A DNA stretch of 64,000 nucleotides from Acetomicrobium hydrogeniformans (GTDB lineage: Bacteria; Synergistota; Synergistia; Synergistales; JAFGMB01): positions 62,001-126,000 of the forward strand of contig JAENYO010000002.1 of the NCBI GenBank assembly GCA_016841745.1, given 5' to 3'. Positions 18,498 to 19,963 of the stretch are shown in pieces (position 1 is the first letter of the stretch; each line of letters begins with the position of its first letter). Under the pieces are notes generated by a model. The model was not told where the DNA came from. It did not search any database and saw only the letters and a program-made list of their open reading frames with translations. The translations under genes and the position numbers were made by a program.

Positions 18498-19331
18498 TTA
18501 GTAAAACCTCTGAAATTCGTCTTTCTCTATATCGAAACAGTGTTCAGACGCAGGGTAAGTTCCTTTTTCTGTTTCATCATGCCAGGTATCAAAAGATCTC
18601 AATATCTCATCATAAAGATGGACATATTGTTTAACGAACTTAGGGACAAATTTATCAACAATTCCAAGAAGAGCATAGGCATTAAGATTTTGAGCAGATG
18701 TATGTGGCCCAGATCCATATCCTATGGTTGGTATATGCAGTTCTTTGTCAATAACTTTAGCTAATTGGCTGGGGAGACATTGAAGCACGATTGCGAATGC
18801 TCCGGCATCTTCGAGAGATCTGGCCTCTCCAAGAAGCTTTTGCGCCACCTCTGAATTATTCCCCTCTACTTTAAAATTACCGCTCATACCCGTAGCCAAT
18901 GGAGTAAGACCGATATGGGCAATCACTGGAATTCCAGCTTTTACAACAGCCCTTACGGTTTCAACAATATCCATTCCACCTTCCATCTTTACACAATCTG
19001 CTCCATTTTGGAGCAAAATCCCTGCATTTCTTATCGCTTCTTTCCTATCAATCTGATATGAAAGAAATGGCATGTCTCCTACAATAAAGGTGTTTGGAGC
19101 ACCTCTTCGTACTAGTTGCAGGTGGTAAATAATATCTTCAAGATTTACGGACAGGGTGCTGGTGAGACCCTGGATAACAGTACCCAAAGAATCTCCCACA
19201 AGGATCATTTCTATGATAGACCGGTCTACTATTGAAGCCATGGGAAAATCATAAACAGTTATCATATTGAATTTGTCTTTTGACAGTTTTTTTGCTTTTA
19301 TTTCAGGAATTGTGATTTTTTTCTTTGACAT
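18498..19331 (-). CDS. PanB-like ketopantoate hydroxymethyltransferase paralogue with altered catalytic residue
   Basis: A TIM-barrel protein of 277 residues clearly homologous to PanB, which makes ketopantoate from 2-oxoisovalerate and methylene-THF. The metal and substrate positions are kept: VGDSLG (Asp47), VGDMPF (Asp86), KMEGG (Lys115, Glu117), AHIGLTP (His139). The general base, Glu181 in E. coli in the sequence LECVP, is glutamine here (IVLQCLP, Gln184). The usual IGIGAG..TDGQ segment reads IGYGSGPHTSAQ. No panC or panD is nearby. ATG 19331 follows GGAGGAAT. It may be a weak PanB or an aldolase or lyase for another substrate. Confidence 0.8.
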   Translation of the reverse strand: MSKKKITIPEIKAKKLSKDKFNMITVYDFPMASIVDRSIIEMILVGDSLGTVIQGLTSTLSVNLEDIIYHLQLVRRGAPNTFIVGDMPFLSYQIDRKEAIRNAGILLQNGADCVKMEGGMDIVETVRAVVKAGIPVIAHIGLTPLATGMSGNFKVEGNNSEVAQKLLGEARSLEDAGAFAIVLQCLPSQLAKVIDKELHIPTIGYGSGPHTSAQNLNAYALLGIVDKFVPKFVKQYVHLYDEILRSFDTWHDETEKGTYPASEHCFDIEKDEFQRFY

Positions 19332-19361
19332 TACCAGATTCCTCCATTCTTAATATATCTA

Positions 19362-19649
19362 TTATTTAGAAAATAGCGCACTTGCCATCCAGGATGAAGC
19401 CATTATTGAACATCGGTCTATGTTATTTTCTGGACTATATGTTTTTTGGTTCATATCTGTTTTATAAAGTGTATAGAGATGAAGTTTCTTTTTCAAGGTC
19501 AGTTGTTTGTAACGTTTTCTATGAGTTCCTTTTGCGCTGATATCGACACTGCTGTAGCGAATCGCCGTTTCTCCACCACCCTGAAGGAAGGTATACTTGT
19601 AAGAGAAATTCAGGTCCCTTTTTAAATTTTTCTTACAATACTTTATGGT
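19362..19649 (-). pseudogene. open, start-less relic of unknown family
   Basis: This minus-strand frame is open for 95 codons with no ATG, GTG or TTG near its upstream end. It is rich in Lys, Arg and Tyr (for example QGGGETAIRYSSVDISAKGT, then HRKRYKQLTLKKK). Just upstream, another frame (AENWLKKVQNKFRDTEGVDE) could continue into it after one frameshift. I do not recognise the family. It may be the rest of a decayed gene or chance. No intact gene is visible between 19332 and 20154. Confidence 0.25.
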
Positions 19650-19911
19650 TCATCAACCCCTTCAGTATCTCGAAACTTATTTTGTACCTTCTTAAGCCAG
19701 TTTTCAGCGGCCTTTTTTCATTATCTATGGAGAAACATTTCTAACAACACTAGTTGAATCTAATTAATAAAATCTATCATCTGCAATAAATGAAACCTCT
19801 TTGTCCTATCTTGCAGTCATTATTATTTGATCGCAGCGCTATGAAAATTTAGAGAAAACGCTGTATGTATCCAGAGTTTTCTTACTGATAGAGATTGACT
19901 ATTGTCAGGTA

Positions 19912-19963
19912 AAAATGATATATAATAATCTATAATCGATTATAGATTATTATATATCATTTT
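19912..19963. repeat. 52-bp perfect palindrome, A+T rich
   Basis: Two 26-bp arms meet with no spacer: the left arm 19912-19937 ends in CTATAATC and the right arm 19938-19963 starts with GATTATAG, a perfect reverse complement. It lies in the 800-base gap between the PanB-like gene and the threonine-synthase-like gene. It could be a cruciform or hairpin, a target of a dimeric protein, or the scar of an inserted element. A run of T does not follow. Confidence 0.9.

Follow-up and report, generated by a model that had tools for sequence, protein, structure and literature searches.

A PanB-like gene of the window (the whole 64,000-nt stretch of DNA that was analyzed) is probably the survivor of a decayed catabolic IlvD-PanB operon, and its own PanB chemistry would have been lost or strongly reduced. 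The gene and its immediate features are as follows:

18498-19331, minus strand: PanB-family (ketopantoate hydroxymethyltransferase-like) gene that starts with ATG and encodes 277 aa, with Gln where the catalytic Glu would be
18690-18725, minus strand: changed conserved loop, IGYGSGPHTSAQ (family form IGIGAG..CDGQ)
18780-18782, minus strand: codon CAA for Gln184, the equivalent of E. coli Glu181
19340-19345, minus strand: ribosome-binding site GGAGGA, followed after 8 nt by the ATG of the PanB-like gene

By homology, the window protein is a full-length PanB family member (PF02548/TIGR00222). PF02548 matched over its full length with 302 bits (cut-off 28.7), and the NCBIfam models TIGR00222 and NF001452 gave 274 bits (cut-off 207.55) and 304 bits (cut-off 272), in agreement with the PanB homologue recognized by an earlier sequence-only reading; the open reading frame lies on the minus strand. 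The best solved relative was E. coli PanB (1m3u, E 8e-59), with 40% identity over 262 aligned columns. The AlphaFold2 model (pLDDT 91) has the PanB beta/alpha barrel and matched M. tuberculosis PanB (1oy0) at 1.5 Å, with a TM (target) of 0.96. Its weakest part is residues 141-160, a loop that is shortened in the sister protein L039 (pLDDT 92).

The residues D45, S46, D84, K112, E114, and H136 of E. coli PanB are all present in the alignment, so the metal and substrate residues are kept, as the sequence-only reading had it. The general base expected of a functional ketopantoate hydroxymethyltransferase is Glu181, which we take to be the proton acceptor of E. coli PanB; in the window protein this position is Gln184 (LQCLP, codon CAA), and the altered loop noticed in the same reading is IGYGSGPHTSAQ. 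Glu occupied this column in 115 of 117 PanB-family rows (Gln in 2) and in 40/40 further PanB homologues of the phylum. Thus, 155 of 157 carry Glu, and the only two with Gln, far from the many that would have spoken against the enzyme proposed in the sequence-only reading, are the window gene and L039. A sequencing error is an unlikely source of the Gln, given the same CAA codon in a sister of a different genus. On these alignments, the substitution is rare and is not noise. Among 51 near-invariant columns (conservation of 95% or more across 108 other rows), 9 were changed in the window gene and 17 in L039, compared with 4-7 in Glu-bearing members of the same branch and 0-1 in the other two paralogues of the window genome. 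The two Gln proteins also have derived changes in common, such as G149N and the loss of D217. Metal-assisted enolization of ketoisovalerate has been described for PanB chemistry (PMC7770189).

The window genome (3.04 Mb, 15 contigs; named relatives in the Synergistota) encodes three PanB homologues, so the window gene as the only panB could be ruled out. The second, canonical panB, for which a search had been proposed, was found on contig C4; it has LECVP and IGIGAGRYCDGQ and adjoins a branched-chain-aminotransferase-like gene and an ABC transporter. A further Glu-bearing copy (LEAVP) lies on contig C12, which also encodes an IclR regulator, a TRAP transporter, and a LarA-type racemase (here and below, the names IclR, TRAP, and formate-THF ligase were given by eye from translations). 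This 15.7-kb contig (L125:505-14536) carries a tartrate/isopropylmalate dehydrogenase-like gene as well, and its PanB paralogue is likely another catabolic PanB. The sequence-only reading stated that panC and panD are absent, which holds within the window but not in the genome, where panD and panC are adjacent on contig C3. Because the canonical panB, another Glu-bearing paralogue, and panCD sit elsewhere in the genome, the window gene is not the cell's pantothenate PanB. It is neither linked to pantothenate synthesis nor its sole provider, and therefore vitamin synthesis need not depend on it. The aspartate-type cluster beside which the gene had been placed does adjoin it, but in opposite orientation; strand and an 811-nt gap rule out a common operon.

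The sister gene, L039/L007, comes from the MAG Synergistales Zod_Metabat.437, which belongs to another genus of the same family. Its product is 65-68% identical to the window protein, has Gln with the identical CAA codon, and is missing 11 columns of the alignment where the conserved GLTPQ..G segment lies. The next relatives are 53-61% identical and all have Glu. These Glu-bearing branch members are:

L040, L041, and L042: Sporomusa (three species)
L043: Acetomicrobium hydrogeniformans
L044: strain Smac51
L045 and L047: MAGs

In the careful tree, nine PanB rows formed one clade (100/99), within which the window gene and L039 were paired (100/100); a quick tree of 117 rows agreed. The window gene is thus placed in the IlvD-linked PanB branch. 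The tree needs one E/Q change, and by this reconstruction Glu181 is shown to have become Gln before the two sister genera split. Parallel independent changes were rejected, as one change suffices and the two genes have G149N and the loss of D217 in common. Comparison of the flanks found no conserved neighbor or operon partner common to both Gln genomes. Just upstream of the sister Gln gene are two tandem genes that, named by eye, are LysE/RhtB-type exporter-like (L120:959-2312).

The genomic setting of the Glu-bearing members was then compared with that of other PanB loci. An IlvD-type dehydratase was present on the same strand as PanB in 7/7 Glu-bearing members, immediately upstream of it in six and, in L047, at a distance of about 6 kb upstream, compared with an IlvD in the examined flanks of 11 of 72 other PanB loci. 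These operon IlvDs are 64-72% identical to one another. A PanE-type reductase is a neighbor in L044, L045, and L047, and a second PanB paralogue stands beside the branch PanB in L040, L041, L042, and L047, as well as in L043 (contig end). TRAP transporters and IclR regulators lie near PanB in L043 and L044, and L047 has a formate-THF ligase together with a GarD-type dehydratase. In Sporomusa acidovorans, the neighbors are genes for a D-threonate-kinase-like protein, a PdxA-like protein, and a LarAH10 2-hydroxyacid racemase. To judge from gene content, the setting of the branch operons looks catabolic, directed at hydroxylated acids and not at pantothenate synthesis. Because the Glu-bearing members sit in sugar-acid-type catabolic clusters, a different keto acid is a plausible substrate of the ancestral branch. 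As a THF-independent aldolase, E. coli PanB is known to accept many different keto acids (PMC7610986, PMC10127515). The Glu-bearing operons plausibly release CH2-THF from hydroxylated keto acids.

The Sporomusa acidovorans cluster has the order IlvD, PanB, PanB, D-threonate-kinase-like, PdxA-like, LarAH10 racemase (L040:8309-15764), and it is possible that it encodes an undescribed sugar-acid pathway with two PanB steps. Several anaerobes have a PanB-type gene directly followed by a formate-THF ligase (L086:10001-10936, L108:7424-8413, L109:2836-3835, L114:10001-10931, and L047:13516-14409), an arrangement suggestive of PanB paralogues that either supply one-carbon metabolism or draw on it. 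A literature search, covering sources outside most subscription journals, returned no paper on IlvD-PanB clusters, PanB in Sporomusa, Glu181 mutants, or apionate catabolism via these genes.

Upstream of the window gene, pieces of a decayed IlvD were recognized:

19362-19421, minus strand: IlvD C-terminal remnant (IlvD residues 537-553), IDRCSIMASSWMASALFSK then stop, against LDRYSKMVSSAMDGAVFK then stop; in-frame TAA, 30 nt short of the PanB-like ATG
19618-19680, minus strand: remnant of IlvD residues about 498-518, ISFEILKGLMNHKVL, stop, EKFKK; other frame
19686-19802, minus strand: remnant of IlvD residues 457-495, KEVSFIADDRFY, stop, LDSTSVVRNVSP, stop, IMKKGR, stop, KLA, stop, EG; four stops

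The pieces are on the same strand as the PanB-like gene and colinear with the IlvD C-terminus, and the 30-nt spacing matches the operon layout, with 27 nt between IlvD and PanB in Sporomusa and 42 nt in Acetomicrobium. When the six read-through frames of the whole window were searched with an HMM of the operon IlvDs, the tile just upstream of the gene ranked first (E 0.029; next 0.71). With the upstream region alone, E was 1.1e-4, and a second colinear segment was found at the IlvD C-terminus. The matches are short and of low identity, and chance was controlled for by shuffling, by trying other proteins and other segments of the window, and by reading the opposite strand. Frameshift-tolerant alignment of the remnant scored 41, whereas the best of 3000 dinucleotide shuffles reached 38.3. 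Alignment with the Smac51 IlvD scored 62, and the best of 1000 shuffles reached 54, although some coding segments of the window exceed 62; the score of the C-terminal piece alone was reached by 10 of 2000 shuffles. A chance match was rejected on the HMM rank and the layout, which carry the argument, as coding segments can outscore the remnant in the frameshift alignment. We judge the putative IlvD remnant to be real on the concordance of its rank, strand, order, stop, and spacing. The window gene thus adjoins a decayed remnant only, and not an intact IlvD-type dehydratase. The best IlvD elsewhere in the window genome (contig C10) is 53% identical to the operon IlvDs, and the best in the sister genome, an 86% complete assembly, is 42% identical. 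Compared with the 64-72% among operon IlvDs, these values indicate that both Gln genomes lack the partner. An IlvD remnant was also looked for upstream of L039 and none was found, which counts against the decayed-operon reading. Searches of the flanks for remnants of PanE, LarA, DctP, and UxaA gave nothing convincing. The gap that separates the IlvD remnant from the next gene holds a long AT-rich palindrome (19915-19960, ATGATATATAATAATCTATAATCGATTATAGATTATTATATATCAT).

Selection on the Gln form was estimated by comparing the window gene with L039. This pair gave a dN of 0.217 and a dS of 1.51, and the other pair of PanB orthologues between these genomes gave 0.078 and 1.68. The bootstrapped dN/dS was 0.14 (0.07-0.22) for the Gln pair and 0.046 (0.017-0.077) for the other pair, ratios that are approximate because a dS of about 1.5 is close to saturation; the dN of the Gln pair was 2.8 times that of the other pair (95% 1.9-4.3). 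By these estimates, the Gln protein is under purifying selection, threefold weaker than that on the other PanB orthologue. The constraint has weakened without vanishing: neutral evolution would not have preserved the frame and 68% identity. The reading frame has stayed open since the Gln arose, and since the Gln predates the genus split, the Gln form itself was kept under selection. This speaks for a residual or altered role, and a new function stays in consideration.

For the parental operon, we make a proposal that is consistent chemically: IlvD would convert a 2,3-dihydroxy acid by dehydration into a 4-hydroxy-2-keto acid, and the PanB-like enzyme, running in reverse, would transfer the hydroxymethyl group to THF (giving CH2-THF) and leave a smaller 2-keto acid. 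Apionate would need two PanB steps, fitting the paired PanB genes, and threonate or erythronate one. In the window protein, the family mechanism predicts that Gln at the general-base position and the changed 203-214 loop would leave this chemistry lost or strongly reduced; PanB chemistry is probably lost or changed. The protein may be kept for metal/keto-acid binding, for base-independent residual reactions, or as a slowly decaying relic. In two linked and more novel readings, the Gln protein could have a new base-independent activity or a ligand-binding role on the PanB fold, and its parent branch could represent an undescribed anaerobic pathway. There, an IlvD-type dehydratase would work with PanB-type retro-hydroxymethyltransferases to produce pyruvate and CH2-THF from hydroxylated acids, such as threonate/erythronate or, over two PanB steps, apionate. 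We give these readings a low probability.

The sequence-only reading had suggested that the protein may be a new C-C lyase or aldolase, for example one acting on a different keto acid. Its different keto acid remains plausible for the ancestral branch, but new chemistry in the window gene itself was not borne out: the IlvD partner has decayed, L039 has lost the GLTPQ..G segment, and constraint is threefold weaker, all of which speak for an original function that was lost or has drifted, not for a new one gained. In its wider form, a neofunctionalized PanB-fold enzyme would act as a lyase/aldolase or decarboxylase on another keto acid through Gln184 and the changed loop, perhaps tied to the nearby amino-acid degradation genes. 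Such an enzyme would account for a Gln fixed across two genera with an identical codon, for the intact frame and ribosome-binding site, for a dN/dS well below 1 after the Gln change, and for the high-confidence barrel (AlphaFold2) with all metal ligands kept. It would have to do so with no operon partner or conserved neighbor between the two Gln genomes and under weakened constraint, and the further active-site loss in L039 is unlike a refined new active site. We consider it unlikely, and a new lyase, although possible, is less likely than an orphaned, altered member of a catabolic IlvD-PanB operon.

The opposite proposal, that the protein still carries out the ordinary PanB-type hydroxymethyl transfer with another residue or a metal-bound water in place of Glu181, draws on the retained metal and substrate residues and on a TIGR00222 score well above cut-off. 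We think it improbable, as Glu is kept in 155/157 homologues, including all Glu members of its own branch, and two other Glu-bearing copies in the genome leave no pressure to keep a handicapped one. Least probable is a plain pseudogene in progress, functionless and still open by chance. Neutral drift over a dS of about 1.5 would destroy frame and similarity, yet 68% protein identity and a dN/dS of 0.14, far from neutral, remain, together with an intact frame and a good ribosome-binding site; decay of the IlvD partner, the raised dN, and the loss of nine near-invariant residues are what such a relic would explain. The survivor of a decayed IlvD-PanB operon remains our preferred reading.

Compared with characterized PanB (EC 2.1.2.11; E. 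coli 1m3u, M. tuberculosis 1oy0), the window protein shares the fold (1.5 Å to 1oy0), the full-length PF02548/TIGR00222 match, the metal ligands Asp45/Asp84/Glu114, and Lys112 and His136. It differs in Glu181 to Gln, in changes at Q142, G149, Q153, A204, D217, and the IGIGAG..DGQ loop, and in not being the genome's biosynthetic copy. With the IlvD-linked branch, it has in common the clade (100/99), the TVYD, KMEG, and NLNAY motifs, and the ancestral order IlvD-PanB, whereas the Glu-bearing members keep Glu181, the GGFK[VL]QG loop, and an intact IlvD, often with PanE, LarA-type, or TRAP neighbors. Class II 2-keto-acid aldolases acting on formaldehyde (YfaU/RhmA) would resemble it in metal enolate chemistry on 2-keto acids. 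The E. coli PanB described as a THF-independent aldolase (PMC10127515, PMC7610986) is Glu-bearing, unlike the window protein.

Automatic annotation calls the window gene panB, despite the absent catalytic residue and two other copies in the cell. The gene is a clean example of one outliving the operon that decays around it. The Glu-bearing IlvD-PanB operons are a more interesting lead than the window gene. The IlvD-PanB pair and PanB beside formate-THF ligase recur in acetogens, Synergistota, and deltaproteobacteria. Going by this recurrence, many genes annotated as 'PanB' in anaerobes may encode catabolic enzymes that feed one-carbon metabolism, not vitamin synthesis.
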